DNA of 64,000 nt from Ewingella americana ATCC 33852 (GTDB lineage: Bacteria; Pseudomonadota; Gammaproteobacteria; Enterobacterales; Enterobacteriaceae): the NCBI RefSeq assembly GCF_000735345.1, contig NZ_JMPJ01000065.1:400296-464295 (forward strand), read 5' to 3'. This document shows positions 41,684 through 56,811 of this stretch, piece after piece. The notes beneath the pieces were generated by a model that searched no databases, had not been told where the DNA came from, and saw only the letters and a list, made by a program, of their open reading frames with translations. Each line of letters opens with the position of its first letter. Position 1 is the stretch's first letter. The position numbers and the translations under genes are program-made.

Positions 41684-43072
41684 ATGAATTACGCAGTATC
41701 CCGCAACGCGAATCCCCAGCCTTTGGGCAGCACCGTTGTCGCCAAATTCGGCGGCACCAGCGTAGCGGATTACGACGCCATGAATCGCAGCGCCGATGTG
41801 GTTCTCTCCAACCCGAATGTCCGTCTTGTCGTGCTGTCAGCATCGGCTGGGATCACTAACCTGTTGGTTGAACTCGCGCAGGGCAAAGACGCCGAGCGCC
41901 GGGTATTCCTGCTTGATGAAATTCGCCGGATCCAATCCGCTATCATCGACTGCCTGAATAAACCTGACGTGATCCGCGAAGAGATTGGCCGCATGCTGGA
42001 AAACATTAGCATGCTGTCTGAAGCCGCAAGCCTCGCCACCTCGACCGCGCTGACCGATGAACTGGTCAGCCACGGCGAACTGATGTCCACTCTGCTGTTT
42101 GTGGAAATTCTGCGTGAGCGCAATGTCGCCGCAGAATGGTTCGACGTGCGTAAAGTCATGCGTACCAATGAACATTTCGGCAAAGCCGAGCCGGACACCA
42201 CCGCCCTGTCTGAGCTGGCGCTGCAACAGCTGCAACCGCGCATTCAGGAAGCCTTAGTGGTAACTCAGGGCTTTATCGGCGCGGAAGCCAAAGGACGCAC
42301 CACCACGCTAGGCCGTGGCGGCAGCGACTATACCGCTGCTCTGCTGGGTGAAGCGTTGAGCGTCGCTCGCGTGGATATCTGGACAGACGTGCCGGGCATC
42401 TACACCACTGACCCGCGCGTAGTGCCAGCGGCTAAACGCATTGATCGCATTACTTTCGAAGAAGCGGCTGAAATGGCCACCTTCGGAGCGAAAGTATTGC
42501 ACCCGGCGACCCTGCTTCCCGCCGTACGTCGCGGTATTCCGGTATTTGTCGGTTCGAGCAAAGACCCGGCTGCGGGCGGCACATTAGTGTGTAACACCAC
42601 GGTTAACCCGCCGCTGTTCCGCGCGCTGGCTCTGCGCCGCAAACAGACTCTGGTCACTCTGCACAGCCTGAGCATGCTGCATTCACACGGTTTCCTCGCC
42701 GAAGTGTTTGGCATTCTGGCGCGTCACAATGTGTCAGTAGACCTGATCACCACCTCTGAAGTTAGCGTGGCCTTGACGTTGGACACCACGGGTTCAACGT
42801 CATCCGGTGCCAGCCTGCTGACCACCTCGCTGCTGACTGAGCTGTCTTCATTGTGCCGCGTGGAAGTGGAAGAAAACTTGGCGCTGATCGCCCTGATTGG
42901 CAATAAATTGTCTCAGGCAAGCGGCGTGGGTAAAGAGGTGTTTGGGGTGCTCGACCCGTTCAACATCCGCATGATTTGCTACGGCGCAAGCAGCTACAAC
43001 CTGTGCTTCCTGGTGCCGGGCAACGACGCCGACCAAGTCATTACTACTCTACACCGCAACCTATTCGAATAA
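41684..43072 (+). CDS. lysC: Lysine-sensitive aspartokinase III
   Basis: LysC phosphorylates aspartate, the first step to lysine, threonine and methionine. The 462-residue protein has the kinase domain (about 15-300) with VVAKFGGTSVADYDAM at its start and TTLGRGGSDYTAALLG in the nucleotide site. Two ACT domains in the C-terminal third (VTLHSLSMLHSHGFLAEVF and LIALIGNKLSQASGVGKEVF) bind lysine. There is no homoserine dehydrogenase fusion. The ribosome site GAGG lies 6 bp upstream, and the lysine riboswitch precedes it. Confidence 0.97.
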   Translation: MNYAVSRNANPQPLGSTVVAKFGGTSVADYDAMNRSADVVLSNPNVRLVVLSASAGITNLLVELAQGKDAERRVFLLDEIRRIQSAIIDCLNKPDVIREEIGRMLENISMLSEAASLATSTALTDELVSHGELMSTLLFVEILRERNVAAEWFDVRKVMRTNEHFGKAEPDTTALSELALQQLQPRIQEALVVTQGFIGAEAKGRTTTLGRGGSDYTAALLGEALSVARVDIWTDVPGIYTTDPRVVPAAKRIDRITFEEAAEMATFGAKVLHPATLLPAVRRGIPVFVGSSKDPAAGGTLVCNTTVNPPLFRALALRRKQTLVTLHSLSMLHSHGFLAEVFGILARHNVSVDLITTSEVSVALTLDTTGSTSSGASLLTTSLLTELSSLCRVEVEENLALIALIGNKLSQASGVGKEVFGVLDPFNIRMICYGASSYNLCFLVPGNDADQVITTLHRNLFE

Positions 43073-44205: not shown

Positions 44206-44691
44206 CTATTCAAAAACTAACGTACAAAGCTCCGGTAACTCTTCCACCAAGCAATTGTCCGTACCGCCGCGATCTATGGTCAGGAAGTCGGTCACGGTTT
44301 GGTAAGCAAACAGCGGATGGTGCCACACTCCCCGGCGATAGTTCACCCCCTCCGAGCCGTTAGTGATAAAGGCTTTTAGCGTCTCCGTTCGAATGTGCTC
44401 TCCGGCCTCCGCCACAATCACCACAAAAGCCTCCCCCTTCAGCGGCATAAAGGCCTGACTGCCCAGCGGGTGCTTCTCGAGCACAGAAATCTGGATTGGC
44501 AGCGGCGCGGGCTGGGAGCGATTGATACTCATCAGCACCGGCTTGCCATCAATAATTTCAATATCTATCAGGTCGTGATACCGCTCGGTCTGGCCATCAT
44601 TGATGTGAAAGAAATCATTTCCCTCCACTTTGATAACCTCACCGTAAGGCGAAAACGCTTCGCTTGTGAGCCTGCTGACTTTCAGTTCCAT
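44206..44691 (-). CDS. allA: Ureidoglycolate lyase
   Basis: A 161-residue cupin-like enzyme that splits ureidoglycolate into glyoxylate and urea, the last step of allantoin breakdown. It begins [20 protein letters not shown] and has the family motifs [13 protein letters not shown] and [12 protein letters not shown]. The start at 44691 has AAGGAAA upstream and matches E. coli AllA; a 22-codon extension is open. No other allantoin or urate gene is nearby, so it is an isolated copy whose product may feed glyoxylate to the aceB/aceA system elsewhere. Confidence 0.9.
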
Positions 44692-44875
44692 ACATTTCCT
44701 TTTGCGATAGGGGGTCCATCCTTTGGGATTTTCCACGGGCCAGAACCTGCGCTTCAACGCGTGTGAGCGTGCATAAACATATTATTGGAAATATTTTCCA
44801 TAACAGCGATCATTCGCACAATTATCGCGCAATAGGATAAAAAGCAGCTCGGGTTTCAAAAGGAAATACAGAGGG

Positions 44876-44920
44876 GAAAACAAGAAGAAAGCCACGCGAA
44901 AGTTAAGCTTCGCGTGGCTT
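44876..44920 (-). terminator. Terminator of yjbB and of the organophosphorus operon
   Basis: AAGCCACGCGAA (44889-44900) and TTCGCGTGGCTT (44909-44920) form a 12-bp stem; the minus strand then reads TTTCTTCTTGTTTTC. It follows the yjbB stop immediately. Confidence 0.8.
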
Positions 44921-44926
44921 CAGGGC

Positions 44927-46582
44927 TTATTTCATCAGGGTTACGGCATCATCGGCGTCGCGGTCGTCGTCTTCCTGCGCATCTTTGTCCAACACGTTAT
45001 AAGCCACGGCGCAGAACAGCGAGTTAAGGCGCTTCATGTCGCCCAGCAAACCTAAATGCAACGAGCTGGTTTCGATGCTTTGCACGTTATGCTGATGCAA
45101 ACGGTCGACGTGGGCGTGAGCGTAGCGGCGGTCCAGCAAGCGGAAGCGATGCTTAGAACGACGCAGGCGGCGGGCGCTGGTCAAATCATTAGACAGGAAT
45201 ACCGACAGGCTCAGACGCAGGTTGTCCACCAGCTTCTCATGCAGAGAATCCAACTCGGTCAGACCTTCAGGCGAGAACGCCCGGCGCGCCGCGTGAGATT
45301 TCGCCGCAATGTCCGCCGTCATGCGTTCAATGATGTCGCCAGCCTGTTCGAGGTTCATCGCCATTTCGATGATTTCCGCCCAGCGGCGCGAATCATCTTC
45401 GCCCAAATCCTCTTTGTGGATCTGCGCCAGATAGAGCTTGATGGCGGTGTAAAGCACATCAACGTCATCATCCAGACGGCGCACTTCACGGTCCTGTGCC
45501 AGTTTGCCGTGCATCACCTCGTGGTTGAGGATCAGCATATGCTCCACCACGTCGCCCATGCGCAGCGTCTCACGCGCGGCATTAGCCAGCGCCAGCGCCG
45601 GGGTATCCAGCGCGCTGACATCCAGATGGCGAGGGCGCAGGCGCGGATCTTCTTCCGGCGCGTCGGCTATCATCAGTTCGCACACCCGAGCCATTGGGCC
45701 AGAAAGCGGCACCATCGCCAGACAGCGGATCAGGTTGTAGAACATGTGGAAATAGATAACCAGCTCTTCGTCCGGAATGCCCAAACGCGCCAGTTGCCCC
45801 GAGAGCGGCCCGATAAAAGGCAGCACGATGACGCAGCCAATTAGCTTAAACAGCACGCTGCCCAGCGCCACGCGGCGGCCAGCGGCATTCTGTTTGCTGG
45901 CGTTGATCATCGCCAGCAAGCCACTGCCGAGGTTGGCACCAATCACCAGACAGAGCGCGACTTTCAGCGAAATCACCCCGGTCGCCGCCAGCGTGGCCGT
46001 CAGCAGCACCGCCGCCAAACTGGAGTAACTGACAATGGCGAAAACTGCGCCGGTCAGGGCATCGAGGATCACATCGCCGGTCAACGACGAGAACAGCACT
46101 TTGACGCCCGATGCCTGCGTGATAGGCGTCGCGGCCGAGACAATCAGCTCCAGCGCCAGCAAGATCAGCCCAAGGCCAATCCCCACGCGGCCCATCTGCC
46201 CGGCGCGGGTCTGTTTACGGCTGAGGAAGAAGGAGACGCCGACAAAAATCAGCAACGGCGAGAGCCACGACAGGTCAAAGGTCAGTACGCGCGCCATCAG
46301 CGCGGTACCGACATCCGCGCCGAGGATAATCACCAGCGCCGGAGAAAGGGCCACCAGCCCCTGTGAAACGAAGGAGGTCACCAGCAATGCTGTAGCATTG
46401 CTGCTTTGAACCAGCGCGGTAACCCCAATCCCTGCCACAAAGGCCAGAGGTTTTTTTTCCACGCTATTGCTGAGAACTCGCCGCAGATTGGCACCAAAAA
46501 CGCGCATGATGCCAGTACGCACAATGTGCGTACCCCAAACTAAAAGTGAAACAGCAGACAACAAATGCAGAAGAGTTAACAC
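44927..46582 (-). CDS. yjbB: Na/Pi cotransporter family protein YjbB
   Basis: A 551-residue protein with an N-terminal duplicated Na/Pi-cotransporter membrane domain (about 1-310) and a C-terminal PhoU-like helical domain (about 340-540). The signature QSSNATALLVTSFVSQGLV lies near 60 and the second repeat SYSSLAAVLLTATLA near 185. E. coli YjbB exports phosphate when internal Pi is high. It starts at a GTG 15 bp after the HAD phosphatase stop, so it reads as the last gene of the organophosphorus series and could vent surplus phosphate. In E. coli it stands apart from any such operon. Confidence 0.92.
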   Translation of the reverse strand: MLTLLHLLSAVSLLVWGTHIVRTGIMRVFGANLRRVLSNSVEKKPLAFVAGIGVTALVQSSNATALLVTSFVSQGLVALSPALVIILGADVGTALMARVLTFDLSWLSPLLIFVGVSFFLSRKQTRAGQMGRVGIGLGLILLALELIVSAATPITQASGVKVLFSSLTGDVILDALTGAVFAIVSYSSLAAVLLTATLAATGVISLKVALCLVIGANLGSGLLAMINASKQNAAGRRVALGSVLFKLIGCVIVLPFIGPLSGQLARLGIPDEELVIYFHMFYNLIRCLAMVPLSGPMARVCELMIADAPEEDPRLRPRHLDVSALDTPALALANAARETLRMGDVVEHMLILNHEVMHGKLAQDREVRRLDDDVDVLYTAIKLYLAQIHKEDLGEDDSRRWAEIIEMAMNLEQAGDIIERMTADIAAKSHAARRAFSPEGLTELDSLHEKLVDNLRLSLSVFLSNDLTSARRLRRSKHRFRLLDRRYAHAHVDRLHQHNVQSIETSSLHLGLLGDMKRLNSLFCAVAYNVLDKDAQEDDDRDADDAVTLMK

Positions 46583-46597
46583 TAAAGAACAGCTCCG

Positions 46598-47254
46598 TTA
46601 ACGCCAGGCAAAAACAGGCCATCCTGCCTGCCGGGCGTGTTGGTGCAGGATAGCGTCCGGGTTCACCACATTCGGGTGACCTACCTTAGTGAGCAGCGGC
46701 AAGTCATTGTGGGAATCCGAGTAAAAACTGGCGTGTTGCAGCTGGGAAGCATCCTGATTAATCAGCGCCATCAGCCGCGTGACCTTGCCTTCGCGGTAGG
46801 TCATCACGCCTTGCGTCGTGCCGGTGAAAATCCCATTTTCAATGCCGACACCAATCGCCAAGGTTTCGTCAACGCCAAGGAAGCGGGCGATTGGCGCAAC
46901 CAAATGTTCACCCGAGGCGGAAATCACCACCGTGCGATCACCTTTCTCACGGTGACGGGCCAAACATTCACGAGCGTCATTGTATACGCGTGGGGCAATC
47001 ACTTCATGAATATAAAGTTGTACCATCTGCGCCACATCTTGCTGAGTGCGGCCTTGCAGCGGCTCAAGGGTACAGTTCATGTACTCTTGCATATCCATCT
47101 GACCCACGGCGTATTGCTGCATCAGGTAGGCGTCGCGTTGCAGGAATGCCTGCTCATTCGCCACCCATCCCTGCTTCACCATAAAGGCTGACCACAGGCT
47201 GGAACAGTCGCCGCTAATCAGAGTTTCATCGAGATCAAACAGCGCCAGACTCAT
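46598..47254 (-). CDS. HAD-IB family phosphatase
   Basis: A 218-residue SerB-like haloacid dehalogenase hydrolase. Motif I is FDLDETL with the nucleophilic Asp7 and the acid/base Asp9. Motif II is the Ser of VVISASGEH. The motif III Lys/Asp region ends YSDSHNDLPLL, where the two Asp bind Mg2+. It lacks the Schiff-base lysine architecture expected for phosphonoacetaldehyde hydrolase PhnX, so a phosphomonoester substrate is more likely. It overlaps the ATPase gene stop by 4 bp and precedes yjbB. Confidence 0.85.
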   Translation of the reverse strand: MSLALFDLDETLISGDCSSLWSAFMVKQGWVANEQAFLQRDAYLMQQYAVGQMDMQEYMNCTLEPLQGRTQQDVAQMVQLYIHEVIAPRVYNDARECLARHREKGDRTVVISASGEHLVAPIARFLGVDETLAIGVGIENGIFTGTTQGVMTYREGKVTRLMALINQDASQLQHASFYSDSHNDLPLLTKVGHPNVVNPDAILHQHARQAGWPVFAWR

Positions 47255-48243
47255 GCAACTTCCCGTAACGTAACAAGATCTAACTGTAGACCAATTTCAC
47301 TGCCATCGGCGAGGAGAGAGGCTACAGAACGGTTCAACACATCCACGGAAAGCTCGACATTGTTCGCCAAAACGCGATAACGCACCACGCTTCCCAACAG
47401 GCTGTGATTTAAAATTCGGGCCGAAATGCCCTGTTCAGGTGCACATAATACAATCGATTCAGGGCGAATTGCCACCTGACCGCCGTACTGCTGGCCGGTC
47501 AAAGCGTGCGCCTGTTCGGCTGTCAGCAAGTTATAACTGCCGATGAAACCGGCGGCGAAGGCGTTAACCGGCTCGGTATATAGAGTTTCGGCGTCAGCGT
47601 TTTGCACAATCTGACCTTTGTTCATCAGCACGATTCTGTCGGACATGGTCAGGGCTTCTTCCTGATCATGGGTCACAAAAATGGCCGTCAGGTTCATTTC
47701 GCGCTGAATACGGCGGATCTGCTCGCGCAGGTGTTTACGAATACGGGCATCAAGCGCGGAGAGAGGTTCGTCGAGCAGCAGCAGGCGCGGCTGTGTCACC
47801 AAAGAGCGCGCCAAGGCCACGCGCTGGCACTGCCCGCCCGACAGCTGGTGCGGATAACGCTTGGCGTAATCGTTCATTTCCACCAGCGCCAGCACGTCGC
47901 CAACCCGGCGGTGAATCTCATTCGCCGACAATTTCTGCATCTTGAGGCCGAAAGCCACATTGCCTTCGACAGTCATATTCGGGAATAGCGCGTAGCTCTG
48001 GAAAACCATGCCGATACCGCGCTCTTGCGGGCTGAGCGGCACAATGTCCTGCCCTTGCAAAATAATCTGCCCGCTGTCTACCGAGGTCAGCCCCGCGAGG
48101 CAGCGCAGCAGGGTGGATTTCCCGCAGCCGCTAGGCCCAAGTAAAGTGACGAATTCGCCCTCTTTCGCGCTGAAATCAATGTCGTTGAAAATCTGCGTTT
48201 GGCCGTAATGCTTGTTGAGTTTAGTGACCTGTAAATAGGACAT
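47251..48243 (-). CDS. ABC transporter ATPase, 2-aminoethylphosphonate (PhnT)-like
   Basis: A 330-residue nucleotide-binding subunit of the spermidine/iron/AEP transporter type. Walker A is LLGPSGCGKSTLLRCLAG near 34-51, the signature LSGGQCQRVALARSL near 135, and Walker B LLLLDEPLSALDARIRK. A C-terminal TOBE-like regulatory domain begins near 240 (QYGGQVAIRPESIVL). Synteny with two permeases, a binding protein and a PhnR-like regulator supports a role in phosphonate-type uptake; the exact substrate is not known. Confidence 0.88.
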   Translation of the reverse strand: MSYLQVTKLNKHYGQTQIFNDIDFSAKEGEFVTLLGPSGCGKSTLLRCLAGLTSVDSGQIILQGQDIVPLSPQERGIGMVFQSYALFPNMTVEGNVAFGLKMQKLSANEIHRRVGDVLALVEMNDYAKRYPHQLSGGQCQRVALARSLVTQPRLLLLDEPLSALDARIRKHLREQIRRIQREMNLTAIFVTHDQEEALTMSDRIVLMNKGQIVQNADAETLYTEPVNAFAAGFIGSYNLLTAEQAHALTGQQYGGQVAIRPESIVLCAPEQGISARILNHSLLGSVVRYRVLANNVELSVDVLNRSVASLLADGSEIGLQLDLVTLREVA

Positions 48244-48245
48244 TT

Positions 48246-49031
48246 TCAGCTCTTTTCCTTGTTCAGCACGTTAGCAATCCAAGTGAAAATCAGGACTACC
48301 ACGAAATAGGAGATGACCAATGCGCTGGTGAAGTGGCCGCTGCCATTGCGCATGTTGAACAGATAAACTTGTAGCGTTTCGTAGCGGCTTCCGGCCAACA
48401 GGTTGGCGAAGACGAACTCGCCGATTAAGAAGGAGAACGACAGCAGCACGGCGATCATTCCGCCTTTGCGCAGGTTGGGCAAAACCACCAGCAGCGCGGC
48501 TTTCCACGTGCTGGCGCCCAGCAGGTGCGCGGCGTCCATCAGGTCACGCAGGTTTATCGCCTGCATGTTGTTGGAAATCGCCCGATAGATGAACGGCAAG
48601 GCAATAGTGAAGTAGCAGCCAATCAGGATCCACGGCGTGCCGGTCATGGCCAATGGCCCCGACGAGTAGAGCGACATCAGGCCGACGGACGAGACCACCG
48701 GCGGCACCGCAAACGGTAGCAGGATCAAGATGTTCATTAGCGTGTCGAGCTTAGGGAAATAGTAAGCAATCACAAACATCAGTGGCAGGATCAGCACCAG
48801 CGACAGCAGCAGCGTGCCAAAGCAGATCAGCAGCGAATGGCCCAGTGCAATCAGGAAACGCGGGTCGCTCCACAGCGCCACCATCCATTTCAAGGTGAAA
48901 CCGCTCGGCAAAATAGTCGCGCCCCACTCGCTAACTAAGGCGTAAATCAGCGTCGCGGCCAGCGGCAACAGCAGGATCACCATCAAAATCCAAACAATCA
49001 GGCGGTGGTAAGCCCCTTCAATGCGAGACAT
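48246..49031 (-). CDS. ABC transporter permease (PhnV-like)
   Basis: A 261-residue inner-membrane permease with six predicted helices. The EAA loop is RDLMDAAHLLGASTWKAALLVVLPNLRKGG. The start at 49031 follows GGGAGG at ideal spacing; a longer open frame to 49097 would overlap the other permease by 37 bp and lacks a ribosome site. Its length is close to that of PhnV (about 265). It is 2 bp from the ATPase gene. Confidence 0.87.
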   Translation of the reverse strand: MSRIEGAYHRLIVWILMVILLLPLAATLIYALVSEWGATILPSGFTLKWMVALWSDPRFLIALGHSLLICFGTLLLSLVLILPLMFVIAYYFPKLDTLMNILILLPFAVPPVVSSVGLMSLYSSGPLAMTGTPWILIGCYFTIALPFIYRAISNNMQAINLRDLMDAAHLLGASTWKAALLVVLPNLRKGGMIAVLLSFSFLIGEFVFANLLAGSRYETLQVYLFNMRNGSGHFTSALVISYFVVVLIFTWIANVLNKEKS

Positions 49032-49060
49032 GGCGTCCCTCCCGGCAATCAACCCCATTT

Positions 49061-49900
49061 TTAGCGCACATTCAGATAGCTCCTGCGCAATAACCATTGA
49101 TGAATCAACGTGATAAACACCATCAGCACCACCAGCAACATCGCCAGAGCACTGCCCATATTCGGGTCGAGGGAGATATCACCTGACACCAGCGCGGCAA
49201 TGCGCACCGGCACCACGTTGAAGTTGCCGTTGGTCAGCGCGTAGACCGTGGCATAAGCCCCCAGCGCGTTAGCCAGCAGAATGACGAAAGTGCCCATCAG
49301 CGCCGGGAACATCACCGGCAAGCCGATATGACGCCAGTAGCGCCAGCGCCCCGCGCCGAGCAGCGCGGCGGACTCGCGCCAGTCTTCGCGCAGGGCGTCA
49401 AAGGCCGGATAGAGCAGCAGAACGCCGAGCGGGATTTGGAAATAGGTATAAAGAACAATCAGGCCGTCGCGCGAATAGAGGTTGAAGCTCTCCATCAAAC
49501 CGTATTTCTTCAGCAGCAAAGTCAGGCAGCCGTTCAGACCCAGCAAAATGACAAAAGCAAAGGCCAGCGGCACGCCGGCAAAGTTGCTGGTCATATTGGT
49601 AAACGACATAACAAAGTCATGCAGCTTAGTGCGGCCTAGCTGGCGGAGTGAGTAACTGCTCACCAACGCAATCAACAAACCGAACACGCTCGACCAGATA
49701 GAGATATCCAGCGAGAAGCGCATGGCCTGCAAGTAGAAAGGCGAGGTGAGGATATCGGAGTAGTTGCCGAACCCCCACGCCTCATAGGTGTCGCTGTAAA
49801 AACTACTGACCGCCACCCAAACCAGCGGGGCCAGTTGAAACGCGATAAAAAACACGGCAAACGGCAACATGAATAACGCAGCTATCCACTTGGCTTTCAT
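49061..49900 (-). CDS. ABC transporter permease (PhnU-like)
   Basis: A 279-residue permease with six helices, beginning MKAKWIAALFMLPFAVFFIA. The EAA loop is FDALREDWRESAALLGAGRWRYWRHIGLPVMFPALMGT. It should form the heterodimeric channel with the downstream permease. The ATG at 49900 has GAGGAG five bases upstream; a GTG two codons earlier lies too close to it. It follows the AP-superfamily gene by 25 bp. Confidence 0.88.
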   Translation of the reverse strand: MKAKWIAALFMLPFAVFFIAFQLAPLVWVAVSSFYSDTYEAWGFGNYSDILTSPFYLQAMRFSLDISIWSSVFGLLIALVSSYSLRQLGRTKLHDFVMSFTNMTSNFAGVPLAFAFVILLGLNGCLTLLLKKYGLMESFNLYSRDGLIVLYTYFQIPLGVLLLYPAFDALREDWRESAALLGAGRWRYWRHIGLPVMFPALMGTFVILLANALGAYATVYALTNGNFNVVPVRIAALVSGDISLDPNMGSALAMLLVVLMVFITLIHQWLLRRSYLNVR

Positions 49901-49925
49901 CGGCACTCCTCAAGCAGTGACGGGT

Positions 49926-50723
49926 TTAAGCCAACAAGTCCGCGCAATGCGGTTTGTCGTGGGCAATATTCAGTAGCTGGCACACCGTTCCACAGAGTTC
50001 AGTTTGCAGCGGCGCGGCATCCTGCAAGCTAAAGGCTGAGCCGAAGACAAACAGCGGCACCTGACGCTCTTCCGGCAAGATACCGCCGTGGCTGCGGTCG
50101 TCATTCATGCCGTGGTCGGCAGTGACAATTACCTGGTACCCAGCCGCCAGCCAGTCACCCAAGAAGCGGGAGAGAATGCCGTCAGCGTTGCGCGCCTTGT
50201 TGCGATATTGCGGCGTGGAGAGGCCAAATTTGTGTCCCGCATCGTCGATATTCATCGGGTGAATCAGCAGGAAATCAGGATCATAGCGGCGGCGCAGGCT
50301 TTCTGCGTCGTCGAAAAGATGGGAGTCTGGGTAAGCATCGTCGTAATAAAAATGCCCGTGCTGGATAGTCAGTTTTTCGTCGCTGGTGTGGCGGTCACGC
50401 GGTGGGTCAAACGGCGTCTGGTTATAGAGTTCGCTGACCCAGTGGTAGGCCGCCGCCGCGGTAGTTAAACCGGCGTCACGGGCATAATGGAAAATACTGC
50501 GCTGTGTCGAAAGTCTATCAACATGGTTATGCACGATGCCGCTCTCAACCGGCGTCACGCCGGTGAGAATGCACTCGTACAAAGGCCGTGACAATGAAGG
50601 CAATTCGCATTCCAGTTGATACAAGCGGCCGCGTCCAGCAGCGCACTGTGCCTGTAAATATCCCATTGCATCGCGAGCGACCTGATAATTCAGACCGTCA
50701 AGTACCACTAGAATGCTTTTCAT
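49926..50723 (-). CDS. Alkaline-phosphatase-superfamily hydrolase
   Basis: A compact 265-residue metal-dependent hydrolase of the nucleotide pyrophosphatase/phosphodiesterase and phosphonoacetate hydrolase (PhnA) type. Metal ligands appear in VLDGLNYQ near 8-15, HPMNIDDAGHKFG near 155-167 and VTADHGMNDDRSHGG near 195-210. The nucleophile should lie in PSLSRPLYECILTG near 43-56; Ser is more likely than the usual Thr. There is no signal peptide, so it acts in the cytosol on the imported compound. It sits between the binding-protein gene and the permeases of the importer. It could split a phosphonate or a phosphodiester. Confidence 0.82.
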   Translation of the reverse strand: MKSILVVLDGLNYQVARDAMGYLQAQCAAGRGRLYQLECELPSLSRPLYECILTGVTPVESGIVHNHVDRLSTQRSIFHYARDAGLTTAAAAYHWVSELYNQTPFDPPRDRHTSDEKLTIQHGHFYYDDAYPDSHLFDDAESLRRRYDPDFLLIHPMNIDDAGHKFGLSTPQYRNKARNADGILSRFLGDWLAAGYQVIVTADHGMNDDRSHGGILPEERQVPLFVFGSAFSLQDAAPLQTELCGTVCQLLNIAHDKPHCADLLA

Positions 50724-50784
50724 TGAATCGTTGCCTTGTTGCTGATGTTTTAAAAAGTTAACCGTTTGAAGTGATGAGCTTTTA

Positions 50785-51843
50785 TTATTGCTGCATGTTG
50801 ATCATCACGTTCTCTTGCCACAGGCGCGGCAGAGTTTTCGCGCTCTTATCCCAAGCTTCTGGATCAGCAATTGGGTGAGCATTTTTGTATTCGCTGGCAG
50901 GTAACAGTTTGGCTTTCACGTCGTCTGGCAGAGTGATTTTGTCAGCACGGATTGGACGCGCATAACCACGAGCCAGATTGATTTGACCAGCATCAGAGAA
51001 GATGTATTCGCGCGCCAGTTTTGCGGCGTTCGGGTGTTTAGCGAATTTGTTGATGATGGTGGTGTAGCCAGAAGTGATGGTGCCATCAGATGGGATCAGC
51101 ACGTCAAAACGAGTTTTGTCGATCTGGTCGCGGTAGTTCAGGCCGTTGAAGTCCCACACCACGCCAACCTGCACTTCGCCTTTTTCCAACGAGGCAATGC
51201 TTGGGTCGCTCAGGCCCAGACGGCCCGCTTTGGCCAATTTGCCGAAGAACTCCAGACCCGGTTTGAGGTTCTTCTCGTTACCGCCCATGGCGTAAGTCGC
51301 TGCCAGCACGCCGTTGGCTGCCTGAGCGGCGGTACCGACGTCACCGATAGTCACTTTGTAGTTGCCTTTCAGCAGGTCAGCCCAGCTGTGCGGCTCATCT
51401 TTCACCTGTGACTTATCGATAATAAAAGCGATGGTGCCGGTGTAAGCGAGTGCCCACATACCGTCTTTGTCTTTCGCCCACGCTGGAACATCATTCCAAG
51501 TCGTTGGTTTGTAAGGCTGAGTCACACCCTTTTGCACTGCAACCGGGCCGAATGCTGCACCTACGTCGCCGATGTCCGCGCTGGCGTTATCTTTTTCAGC
51601 GGCGAATTTCGCGATTTCTTGTGCCGAACTCATATCGGTATCGCTATGCTTCAACCCATATTGGCTGCTCAACGCGGCCCAAGTATCTTTCCAGTTTGCC
51701 CAAGAGTCAGGCATCCCGACGCTGTTGACCGTACCCTCGGCCTGTGCGGCTTTGACCAGTTCTGCTGGAGGTTCAGCGGCAAACGCCGATGAAGTAGAAA
51801 GAACCAAGGCGCTGGTTAACACTGAAGCGAACAACTGTTTCAT
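50785..51843 (-). CDS. Periplasmic binding protein, phosphonate-type (PhnS-like)
   Basis: A 352-residue extracellular solute-binding protein. The signal peptide begins MKQLFASVLTSALVLSTSSA with cleavage after AFA. The fold is a type-II two-lobe binder of the iron/AEP family. The start at 51843 gives this signal peptide and has CGGAGC upstream; an open extension to 51900 is not needed. It is the first gene of the operon, with the palindromic operator in its leader. Confidence 0.88.
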   Translation of the reverse strand: MKQLFASVLTSALVLSTSSAFAAEPPAELVKAAQAEGTVNSVGMPDSWANWKDTWAALSSQYGLKHSDTDMSSAQEIAKFAAEKDNASADIGDVGAAFGPVAVQKGVTQPYKPTTWNDVPAWAKDKDGMWALAYTGTIAFIIDKSQVKDEPHSWADLLKGNYKVTIGDVGTAAQAANGVLAATYAMGGNEKNLKPGLEFFGKLAKAGRLGLSDPSIASLEKGEVQVGVVWDFNGLNYRDQIDKTRFDVLIPSDGTITSGYTTIINKFAKHPNAAKLAREYIFSDAGQINLARGYARPIRADKITLPDDVKAKLLPASEYKNAHPIADPEAWDKSAKTLPRLWQENVMINMQQ

Positions 51844-51874
51844 AACGGATGCTCCGGATGGTAGTGTGTGTGAG

Positions 51875-51892
51875 TGCTGGTCTAGTCCAGCA
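51875..51892. promoter_or_regulatory. Palindromic operator, likely for the PhnR-like GntR regulator
   Basis: TGCTGGTCTAGTCCAGCA has perfect 6-bp arms. Its core GTCTAGTC matches 7 of 8 bases of the HutC-subfamily operator GTMTAKAC. It is in the leader of the binding-protein gene. Further TGCTGG/CCAGCA half-motifs lie at about 51944 and 52006 in the divergent region. Confidence 0.55.
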
Positions 51893-52029
51893 AGAACCAA
51901 GCCAATCTAACGATCAATTGTGATAATTATATTACAGTGCGAAAAACCAGCATTTTTAAGGCGCAAGCTGTTAACAAGCGCACAATAATTCAGCACTGAT
52001 TCGCCGTGCTGGTGCAAAAACGCACTTAA

Positions 52030-52755
52030 ATGAGGCCTGTTGCAATGAGTGAACCGCTTACCACCGTGGCTGCGATCTGTCTGAGATTGAGTGAAAACAT
52101 CGCGTCCGGCCTATTCGCGGCGGAGGGCCGCCTGCCCTCGGAACGCCAGTTAAGTGAACAATTTGCAACGACCCGCATCACCCTACGCGAGGCACTGAGC
52201 CAGCTCGAAGGTCAGGGTTTGATCTACCGTCAGGTACGGCGCGGCTGGTTTGTTTCTCCGCCACGGATTGTTTATAACCCGTTGCAGCGCAGCCATTTCC
52301 ACGCCATGGCAAGAGAGCAAGGGCGCAGTGCGAAAACCGAAGTGATTGATGCCAAAGAGTTAATTGCCTGCGACGCGGTATGCGCGAAGCTGTCATTGCC
52401 GAAGGATAGCGCGGTGTATTGCATTCGCCGCCTGCGCTACATTGATGGTCGCCCGGTGCTGTATGTCGAGCACTACCTTAATCCGAAGTATTTCCCGCAG
52501 ATTTTAAGTGTCGACTTAACCCAGTCGCTGACTGACCTTTATTCATCAAAGTATGGGATGAGCTATGGGCGAGTACGCTTCGATATGCTCCCCACTCGCC
52601 TGCCGGAAGATGCTTCTTCAGCCTTAAAAGTCGCCCCCGGTAGCCCGGCGCTGTTTATCACCCGAACCAACCGCGATCAGCACGACCGGGTGATTGATTG
52701 TGACTTGGAGTATTGGCGGTATGACGCGTTACATATTGATGTGGAAGTGAATTAA
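52030..52755 (+). CDS. phnR: GntR-family (HutC/UTRA) regulator, PhnR-like
   Basis: A 241-residue regulator. The winged HTH (about 15-80) contains LPSERQLSEQFATTRITLREALSQLE, and the UTRA ligand domain contains RLRYIDGRPVLYVEHYLNP and DCDLEYWRYDALHIDVE at its end. It is closely related in layout to Salmonella PhnR, which controls 2-aminoethylphosphonate uptake. It is divergent from the transport operon and probably represses it until the compound is present. Two ATG starts (52030 and 52045) are possible; GAGG favours the second weakly. Confidence 0.8.
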   Translation: MRPVAMSEPLTTVAAICLRLSENIASGLFAAEGRLPSERQLSEQFATTRITLREALSQLEGQGLIYRQVRRGWFVSPPRIVYNPLQRSHFHAMAREQGRSAKTEVIDAKELIACDAVCAKLSLPKDSAVYCIRRLRYIDGRPVLYVEHYLNPKYFPQILSVDLTQSLTDLYSSKYGMSYGRVRFDMLPTRLPEDASSALKVAPGSPALFITRTNRDQHDRVIDCDLEYWRYDALHIDVEVN

Positions 52756-52863: not shown

Positions 52864-55800
52864 TCAGTCGGCGTCGTAGCCAAGGTTTGGTGCTAACCAA
52901 CGCTCAACTTCGGCAATCGGCATGTTTTTGCGCGCCGCGTAGTCTTCCACCTGATCCCGCTGTATCTGGGCTACGGCGAAATACTTACTTTCAGGATGGC
53001 TGAAGTACCAACCTGAAACCGCCGCCCCCGGCCACATAGCGAAGGACTCTGTCAGTTGCATGCCGGTGTTGGTTTCCACATCCAGCAGTTTCCAGATCTC
53101 ACCTTTCTCGGTGTGCTCAGGGCAAGCCGGGTATCCCGGCGCAGGGCGAATGCCTTGGTAGTTTTCACGAATCAGCTCTTCGTTGCTCAAGCTCTCGCTC
53201 GGCGCAAAGCCCCAATAGACTTTACGCACCCGCTCATGCAGATACTCGGCAAAAGCCTCTGCCAGACGGTCTGCTAAAGCCTTCACCATGATTTTGTTGT
53301 AGTCATCGTGCTGGTTGTCATAAGCCTCGGCCAATGCATCCTCTTCAAGGCCGCCGGTCACGGCAAAGGCTCCCATATAGTCTTTTTTGCCACTGGATTT
53401 TGGTGCTACAAAGTCGGCCAAGCAGTAGTTGGCAAAATCGGTTTTCTCCGTTTGCTGGCGCAGATGGTGGCTGACCACCAGCACCTCTTGGCGGCGCTCA
53501 TCGCTGTAGATTTCGATATCGTCGCCCACGCGGTTAGCCGGGAACAGCCCAACCACGCCACGCGGATTCAGCAACTTCTCGTTCGAGAGCTTATCGAGCA
53601 GGTCATTGGCGTCTTTGAATAGGCGCTTGGCCTCTTCGCCCACCACTTCATCTTCCAGAATGCGCGGATACTTACCCGCCAGCGCCCACGTCATGAAGAA
53701 AGGTGTCCAGTCGATGTAGTTGCGCAGCGTTTCGATGCTGGCTTCCACCTTCTGCACACCAAGACGATGGGCAACTGGCGGGGTATAGCTTTCCCAATCA
53801 ATGACCGTGGCGTTTTCACGCGCAGTTTCAAGGCTGACAGGCGGAGTACGCGGCTTTTTACGACCGTGCTGAATACGCACGGTTTCATACTCTTTACGGG
53901 TACGGGCAACAAACTCATCACGCTGCGAGTTGGAAAGCAGCGCTGAGACGACCCCCACCGAGCGCGAGGCATTCTGTACATACGTCGTCGGACCGCTGTA
54001 GTTCTGCTCAATTTTCACCGCAGTATGGGCTTTCGAGGTCGTTGCGCCGCCAATTAGCAGAGGAATGGTAAAACCACGGCGCTCCATCTCTTTGGCAACG
54101 TTGACCATCTCATCCAGCGAAGGAGTGATAAGCCCTGACAACCCGATGATATCGACATTCTCTTCAATGGCCGTTTTGAGGATTTTGTCGGTCGGCACCA
54201 TCACGCCCAAGTCGATGATTTCATAGTTATTACACTGTAAAACCACGCCAACGATGTTTTTACCAATGTCATGGACGTCACCCTTCACCGTCGCCAGCAG
54301 GATTTTCCCGTTGGTCTGGCCCTTCTCTTTGCTGGCTTCAATATAAGGCTCAAGATAGGCCACCGCCTGCTTCATGACGCGGGCAGATTTCACCACCTGC
54401 GGCAGGAACATCTTGCCCTCGCCAAACAGGTCGCCGACCACGTTCATGCCGTCCATCAGCGGGCCTTCGATCACTTCTATTGGGCGGGCTGACAGCTGGC
54501 GCGCCTCTTCGGTATCGACTTCGATAAATTCCGTAATGCCTTTTACCAGCGAGTATTCCAGACGTTTACGCACTTCCCAACTGCGCCACTCGGCCTGTTG
54601 CTTATTGACTTCGCCGTCGTCTTTATTGCCACGGTATTTTTCCGCCAGATCCAGCAGGCGCTCTGTGCCGTCATCGAGGCGATTGAGGATCACATCTTCA
54701 ACCGCATCACGTAATTCGGCGGAAAGATCGTCGTAGATCGCCAACTGCCCGGCGTTGACGATCCCCATGTCCATACCGTTGCGGATCGCGTGATACAGGA
54801 ACACCGCGTGGATCGCTTCACGCACTGGCTCATTGCCTCGGAATGAGAAGGAGACGTTGGACACGCCGCCGGAGATCATGGCATGAGGCAGCTGCTCTTT
54901 GATGTCCGCGCAGGCTTCGATGAAGTCCACGGCGTAGTTGTTATGCTCTTCAATACCTGTCGCCACGGCGAAGATATTCGGGTCGAAAATAATGTCTTCC
55001 GGCGGAAAACCGACTTCTTCGGTCAACAGCTTATAGGCGCGGCGACAGATCTCGATCTTGCGTGCGCGGGTATCAGCCTGCCCCACTTCGTCAAAGGCCA
55101 TCACCACCATCGCGGCACCATAGCGGCGCACTTTACGCGCATGATTCAGGAAGGCTTCTTCGCCCTCTTTCATCGAAATGGAGTTAACGATGCCCTTACC
55201 CTGAATACATTTCAGTCCCTTTTCAATGACGTCCCACTTGGAAGAGTCAATCATGATTGGCACGCGGGCAATGTCTGGCTCACCGGCAATCAGATTGAGG
55301 AAACACACCATGGCGGCTTCGGCATCCAACATGCCTTCGTCCATGTTGATATCAATGATCTGCGCGCCGCTTTCCACCTGCTGGAGAGCAACCTCCAGAG
55401 CTTCGTTATATTTCTCTTCTTTAATCAGTCGCTTAAAACGTGCCGAGCCGGTAACGTTGGTTCTTTCCCCAACGTTCACAAACAGGGTTTGAGCATCAAT
55501 GGTCAGTGGCTCAAGCCCGGCAAGACGGCAAGCGACCGGAATGTCAGGCAACTGACGCGGCGGCACGCCTTCCACTACTTTGGCTATCGCCGCAATGTGC
55601 TCAGGGGTGGTACCGCAGCAACCGCCGACGATATTCAAGAAGCCAGAACGCGCCCATTCGCCGATATGCTCCGCCATCTCTTTGGCGCCGAGATCGTATT
55701 CACCAAAAGCATTGGGCAAGCCGGCATTAGGGTGAGCCGTGACATAACACTCTGAAATTCTGGACAACTCGGCCACATACTGGCGTAACTCATCAGGGCC

Positions 55801-56547
55801 AAGGGCGCAGTTCAGGCCAAAGGTCAGCGGTTTAACGTGACGCAGAGAGTTATAGAAAGCTTCGGTGGTTTGCCCAGAGAGCGTGCGGCCCGAAGCATCG
55901 GTAATGGTGCCGGAGATCATCACCGGCAGCATCACGCCCATCGCTTCGAACTCCGTTTCCACGGCAAAGGTCGCGGCTTTGGCGTTCAAGGTATCGAACA
56001 CGGTTTCGATCATGATCAGGTCGGCACCGCCTTCGATCAAGGCACGAGTCGACTCGCGGTAGGCGGCCACCAGCTGATCAAAGGTGACATTACGAAAAGC
56101 GGGATCGTTAACATCAGGTGAGATTGACGCCGTTCGGTTGGTCGGTCCGAGTACGCCAGCGACGTATCGCGGCTTTTCAGGCGTGCGCGCCGTCCATTCA
56201 TCGGCACAGATTCGCGCTAAACGGGCAGCTTCATAGTTAATTTCAGCAGATAGCGACTCCATGTGGTAGTCGGCCATAGCGATGGTAGTCGAGTTGAAGG
56301 TGTTGGTTTCGAGAATGTCAGCGCCAGCCTCAAGATAGGCGTAATGAATGGCCGTGATCACCTCAGGTTTGGTCAGCACCAGCAGATCGTTATTCCCTTT
56401 GAGATCGCTTTCCCAATTGGCAAAACGCTCGCCGCGATAATCCGCTTCTTCCAGACGATAACTTTGGATCATCGTCCCCATGCCGCCGTCCAGTACCATA
56501 ATCCGCTGCGCTAACTGGTTGCGTAGTGCCTCAACTTGATTCGCCAC
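52864..56547 (-). CDS. metH: Cobalamin-dependent methionine synthase
   Basis: MetH transfers a methyl group from methyltetrahydrofolate to homocysteine using cobalamin. A GTG start at 56547 gives 1227 residues, the E. coli length, with GAGGTGAGA just upstream; the ATG 12 codons earlier has no support. The homocysteine domain (1-350) has the zinc cysteines NCALG and GGCCGTT. The folate domain follows, then the cobalamin domain with [10 protein letters not shown] carrying the axial His near 759. The reactivation domain has [12 protein letters not shown] near 1134. It stands alone between two regulators. Confidence 0.97.
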
Positions 56548-56811
56548 TCTCACCTCAATCACCTGTCGTTCACCACCGGCCAAACCCTTAGCAATCGCCG
56601 GAAATCATGAAAAGCATCCTAGCATACCTTCCAAGGGCCAAAGCTCAGGAGTTGGTGAGACTTTTTCAATTTAGGAATGCATCTCGCAAGCCCAATGCAA
56701 CACATCGGATGAGCGGAAATGCAGGTTGCGATCCATACTGTAAAAACGAAAATGAATTCCAAAATAACTTTTATTCCTCGCTAATTAGCGCATCTTACAA
56801 GGAAAAGGCCC

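Follow-up and report, generated by a model that had tools for sequence, protein, structure and literature searches.

A cassette of genes for an importer and two hydrolases lies between metH and the phosphate exporter gene yjbB in the window, a 64,000-nucleotide stretch of the genome of Ewingella americana ATCC 33852 (contig NZ_JMPJ01000065.1, positions 400,296 to 464,295 of the forward strand). Our reading, to which we give a probability of about 0.65, is that of a conserved GntR-controlled cassette for the AepSTU-type import and the cytosolic hydrolysis of a small organophosphorus compound, which entered between these two genes. The importer, with its solute-binding protein (SBP), would bring the compound into the cell, where a compact NPP-type phosphodiesterase would carry out the first step. 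A HAD-IB phosphatase, where it has been kept, would then free phosphate in a second step. The imported compound is likely to be a small phosphodiester, or else a phosphate or phosphonate ester such as one with an ethanolamine-like headgroup, and the entry of the cassette may date to an ancestor of several enteric genera.

Similar arrangements exist. The ugpBAECQ genes combine an importer of glycerol 3-phosphate and glycerophosphodiesters with the cytosolic UgpQ, and the Agrobacterium acc genes form the agrocinopine system, with import of the diester, a cytosolic diesterase and a phosphatase. Both share with the proposed pathway of the cassette the import of a phosphodiester followed by a cytosolic diesterase, and acc also the phosphatase, but they differ in enzyme folds and importer families. 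The features of the window are as follows.

52864 to 56583, minus strand: metH, framing the insertion from outside the cassette (open reading frame and E. coli K-12 gene order)
52030 to 52755, plus strand: GntR-UTRA regulator, PhnR-like, divergent from the cassette (PF00392 and PF07702)
51878 to 51889, minus strand: putative operator for GntR, a near-palindrome of 12 bases lying 34 bp 5' of the SBP start codon
50785 to 51843, minus strand: SBP of the SBP_bac_6 type (PF13343)
49926 to 50723, minus strand: predicted compact NPP-type phosphodiesterase of the alkaline phosphatase superfamily, 265 aa (PF01663)
49061 to 49900, minus strand: permease A (PF00528)
48246 to 49097, minus strand: permease B (PF00528), start uncertain, alternative 49031
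47251 to 48243, minus strand: ABC transporter ATPase (PF00005 and PF08402)
46598 to 47254, minus strand: HAD-IB phosphatase with a DLDET motif, final gene of the conserved cassette (TIGR01490)
44927 to 46582, minus strand: yjbB, with Na/Pi-cotransporter and PhoU domains and a GTG start (TIGR00704, TIGR01013, synteny)
44888 to 44921, minus strand: terminator-like stem 3' of yjbB, 14 pairs with a T-rich tail (consensus scan)
41684 to 43072: lysC, on the other side of yjbB

All of the genes named in a first-pass annotation, made from the letters alone, were recovered at these coordinates. From SBP to yjbB, the recomputed gaps are 61, 25, 29 and 2 bp, then an overlap of 4 bp and last a gap of 15 bp, in agreement with the spacing listed there. 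The gap between the hydrolase and permease A becomes 19 bp with a GTG start, and that of 29 bp between the permeases is obtained with the start at 49031, other starts giving 2 bp or an overlap of 37. This spacing is compatible with a single transcript, and the proposed combination of an importer with two hydrolases is supported. A consensus scan gave no terminator-like site between the HAD gene and yjbB, and no promoter-like match 5' of either SBP or yjbB; overall, terminator-like matches were at the shuffle level (12 against a shuffle mean of 11.5) and promoter-like matches numbered 2, against 5.7 in shuffles.

Within the order, 72 of 295 sampled genomes, belonging to 17 of 99 genera, have the hydrolase; in a sample of the class, 6 of 274 genomes have it, the window's own genome being included in both counts. 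Its distribution is thus patchy, and wide conservation was ruled out. Up to 20 kb around the hydrolase was fetched for 60 of the 71 other genomes of the order. Among the 55 fetched loci outside the family, the six genes from SBP to HAD are complete in 51, the hydrolase lies within the importer operon in 52 and a GntR match is present in 35; the exceptions are L039, where HAD was unmatched, and L066, L067 and L081, where the cassette's own importer genes are absent. A broader genome scan gave 588 encoding stretches, of which the best 80 comprise 55 Pseudomonas loci, all with HAD, and 25 others that are nearly all enteric by name. The latter include yjbB in 23 cases, metH in 20 and HAD in 12. 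In Dickeya oryzae and in Citrobacter sp. JGM124, yjbB is missing; in the latter, the copy extends from GntR to HAD at 82-92% identity and is flanked, as judged by eye, by major facilitator superfamily and aldehyde dehydrogenase genes. Such copies without yjbB indicate that the conserved unit ends at HAD. Relatives of the hydrolase occur in 198 plasmid records, 179 of them from Enterococcus. At the DNA level, the cassette had no match in E. coli genomes, and its sole matches in plasmids were part of a permease gene from Pseudomonas and short stretches of the ATPase gene. The cassette, although patchy, thus occurs in enterics, in Pseudomonas and other gammaproteobacteria, and on plasmids of Enterococcus faecium.

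The flanking genes offered no clue to the substrate, as, across the 63 loci compared, every cluster of non-cassette proteins was confined to 7 loci at most. No study naming the substrate was found in a literature search that mostly did not reach subscription papers.

The hydrolase scores 65.7 bits against PF01663 (gathering cut-off 23). The nucleophile, an Asn and the metal-ligand Asp and His residues are invariant in both 17-row alignments, and their positions were matched to 2gsn, except that H212 is only inferred as the last metal ligand. The best structural fits in Foldseek are NPP structures. Compared to the NPP family, with which it has the fold and catalytic residues in common, the hydrolase is shorter (265 aa versus about 380-400 aa) and has little sequence from the DHGM motif to the last histidine. 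Its predicted fold and invariant catalytic residues point to a compact NPP-type phosphodiesterase, which is probably cytosolic; no signal peptide was recognized by eye. It is very unlikely that the enzyme instead cleaves the carbon-phosphorus (C-P) bond like PhnA, which would make the cassette a new phosphonate-degrading route. The PhnR-like regulator and the PhnT2-, PhnV- and PhnS-like scores of the importer would suit such a route, and PhnA has the same fold (Foldseek rank 39, TM 0.68), but NPP structures fit best. In a second structural comparison, PhnA was not among the 50 matches listed, which does not exclude it. In the accessible part of PMC10574752, the reaction of PhnA is attributed to two lysines, which stabilise the leaving group, and neither alignment has a lysine among its invariant columns, the PhnA positions not having been aligned directly.

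Other neighbours of the hydrolase were also observed. On a Labrenzia plasmid (L261:6257-8840), a 34% identical relative overlaps TmpB in a TmpA-TmpB pair, both members of which exceed their model cut-offs. The hint of a choline-like phosphonate ester was followed in 30 TmpA-type loci (15 of them above the model's cut-off) with flanks of ~1.5 kb; none contained a relative of the hydrolase, and the link stays a lead. In L066 (by eye) and L067, the hydrolase adjoins a 679-residue SBP_bac_5-type binding protein and permeases, not the usual importer, and L067 has kept HAD alongside them.

The HAD protein scores 179.4 bits against TIGR01490 (cut-off 98.3), its DxDxT motif reading DLDET, and remains under the cut-off of the histidinol-phosphatase models. 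Its gene is absent from 14 of the 19 cassette-linked yjbB loci of the family. A homolog elsewhere (45-52% identity) occurs in 9 of 17 HAD-less genomes and none in the other 8, of which 3 are less than 90% complete. Judging from this gene content, the second step is dispensable, which would be in line with its being taken over by other phosphatases. The cleavage in two steps that had been proposed is therefore weakened, although two hydrolases are indeed present. At unlinked HAD loci, the importer cassette was seen at none of the four examined out of ten fetched. In one locus of the family with a gap between ATPase and yjbB (L274, genome G331), a short piece of the HAD gene, interrupted by stops, is left directly 5' of yjbB, a sign of recent decay. 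The E. faecium plasmid NZ_CP040850.1, the one read in detail, carries the genes for SBP, hydrolase, both permeases and ATPase next to a divergently oriented gene with a PHP domain, perhaps a phosphatase swap.

The regulator falls narrowly under the cut-off of the PhnR model TIGR03337 (284.5 bits, cut-off 296.75). The curated models of the importer gave 57.7 bits for PhnS (cut-off 395.3), 288.9 for PhnT (499.15), 29.1 for PhnU (283.45) and 93.3 for PhnV (358.7), and the ATPase reached 378.5 bits with PhnT2 (457.7). The system therefore resembles PhnSTUV of Salmonella in its broad importer type and PhnR-like regulator but scores far under the PhnSTUV cut-offs. It also differs in its genome, where neither PhnW (best 74.4 bits, cut-off 400.8) nor PhnX (best 51.9 bits, cut-off 220) exceeds the cut-off; the lack of both enzymes, which had been noted for the operon, extends at these cut-offs to the whole genome. 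The C-P lyase PhnJ is above its cut-off on another contig.

A published counterpart exists in Pseudomonas putida BIRD-1, whose AepSTU locus (PPUBIRD1_3890 to 3895) has a GntR (3890), a pfam13343 SBP (3891) and an ATPase (3895) in the order and spacing of the cassette genes; the SBP tag directly follows that of GntR, and the ATPase comes four tags later. The comparison is one of tags 3890, 3891 and 3895. By gene order, the importer is of the AepSTU type, a class already published. The "undescribed route" of the first-pass annotation is weakened to that extent; for the linked hydrolases, no description appears in the available part of PMC8316502. According to the same part, P. putida no longer grows on 2-aminoethylphosphonate (2AEP) as phosphorus source once AepXVW, AepP and AepSTU are all lost, but still does when AepSTU is the only one missing, and PhnWX is essential for growth of P. 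putida on 2AEP (PMC8316502). These data indicate that the linked hydrolases cannot replace PhnWX in P. putida, and they make it improbable that 2AEP is the main substrate. A plain 2AEP importer feeding C-P lyase, with the two hydrolases serving another task, is very unlikely, at the level given to a PhnA-like cleavage. AepSTU does allow a P. putida mutant without the other two importers to obtain its phosphorus from 2AEP, and PhnJ is encoded here, but AepSTU is merely auxiliary for 2AEP (PMC8316502, same part) and the hydrolase resides inside the importer operon in nearly all of the fetched outside-family loci.

The SBP is 68% identical to the Campylobacter jejuni SBP structure 5t1p, presumably Cj0727. 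Its own predicted structure is weaker (pLDDT 80.1) and served solely for finding relatives, among which are the distant glucose 6-phosphate-binding AfuA and VcA0625 (16-18% identity). These relatives would suit a phosphomonoester substrate such as a sugar phosphate, with both hydrolases acting as phosphatases, which we consider quite unlikely. The C. jejuni genes cj0727-cj0732 are among the operons without assigned function in the accessible part of PMC7176700. The cassette itself is a real unsolved target: the literature found assigns neither a substrate to it nor a function to its two enzymes, and a close binding protein occurs in C. jejuni. Knowing the substrate would improve the annotation of many genomes and might also account for the auxiliary role of AepSTU for 2AEP.

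Control by GntR looks local, as far as the operator can be predicted. A match of at least 9 of the 12 bases lies upstream of SBP in 93 of 135 loci, a lower bound, since sites within an extended SBP alignment are missed, and one in which relatives are not independent. The exact 12-base copy occurs once in the genome and one-mismatch copies five times, versus 19 for the reversed control, and the operator as mark of a wider regulon was ruled out.

The YjbB protein scores 378.6 bits against TIGR00704 (cut-off 210.1) and 427.5 against TIGR01013 (cut-off 306.15); the RefSeq name of the E. coli protein is putative inorganic phosphate export protein. In E. coli K-12, the order is metH-yjbB-lysC, with 219 bp from metH to yjbB, and the window cassette is framed by the same genes. 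The yjbB gene was matched in 80 of 149 family genomes. Twelve window genes were sought in 70 yjbB loci (own included, some flanks being short), and, of those recognised upstream, the one closest to yjbB was metH at 40 loci, the ATPase of the cassette at 14 and HAD at 5. No yjbB stands beside the cassette in any of the 55 fetched loci outside the family or of the 55 Pseudomonas loci among the best 80 of 588, the latter being a difference between the window and the AepSTU type. In Erwinia persicina, the hydrolase alone lies between metH and yjbB. In a 43-row hydrolase tree, the enteric copies group together, with Citrobacter and Dickeya inside. These gene orders would be explained most simply if the cassette was inserted between two long-standing neighbours in an ancestor of the enterics and was later lost, in whole or in part, from some lineages. 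As yjbB was at the site before the cassette, the exporter looks like an inherited neighbour and not, as had been suggested, a recruited part of a new pathway. Insertion beside an old neighbour explains the link, and the case illustrates how tight operon-like spacing can arise in this way. In L036 and L122, the importer genes have been lost and a lone hydrolase is left beside yjbB. The window's own genome has a second YjbB-type gene, 32% identical, on another contig (G000:C38:53818-55407).

With only 15 bp from HAD, yjbB is probably read on the cassette transcript, a coupling that would be secondary and of this lineage, and its own promoter was probably displaced. Venting of phosphate via yjbB is possible in this lineage, without independent support. 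It is doubtful, though worth stating, that the insertion, by displacing the promoter, set the exporter under an organophosphorus-responsive regulator as a wired overflow valve; the imported diester would then be used for carbon or nitrogen with the phosphate vented, and an accident of insertion would have made a new physiological link. Equally doubtful is that selection has made YjbB part of the pathway, venting surplus phosphate when the compound serves as carbon or nitrogen source. The short gap lacking a terminator-like site would fit, as would the adjacency in 19 of the 70 family loci and in nearly all of the named non-Pseudomonas loci, and Stappia releases phosphate when growing on 2AEP as nitrogen source (PMC8316502, available part). 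Against it stand the greater age of yjbB at the site, the absence of an adjacent yjbB in the loci fetched outside the family and in those of Pseudomonas, and the predicted operator, which was not found before the window's yjbB and has a one-mismatch copy in only 1 of 70 yjbB loci.

Several points weigh against an inserted AepSTU-type cassette with a single kind of substrate. Eleven of the 70 yjbB loci have no recognised upstream gene, some metH gaps exceed 1 kb, and the enteric grouping in the hydrolase tree is modestly supported (86/89). The likeness to AepSTU is one of gene tags and spacing, not of AepS sequence. In the available part of PMC5082522, phosphate depletion raises GntR 3890 (3.57), the SBP 3891, there called PhnD3 (2.69), and ATPase 3895 (4.72); in a phoBR mutant GntR and ATPase are undetected and PhnD3 is still up (2.31). 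The same SBP, taken there as responsive to inorganic phosphate, is named AepS and described as constitutive in PMC8316502 (available part). The hydrolase may also vary in its substrate, as it adjoins TmpA-TmpB in Labrenzia and accompanies importers of the peptide type at other loci.

Beyond yjbB, a ureidoglycolate lyase gene (PF04115) occupies window positions 44206-44757; among the 70 yjbB loci, it was matched at the window's own locus only.
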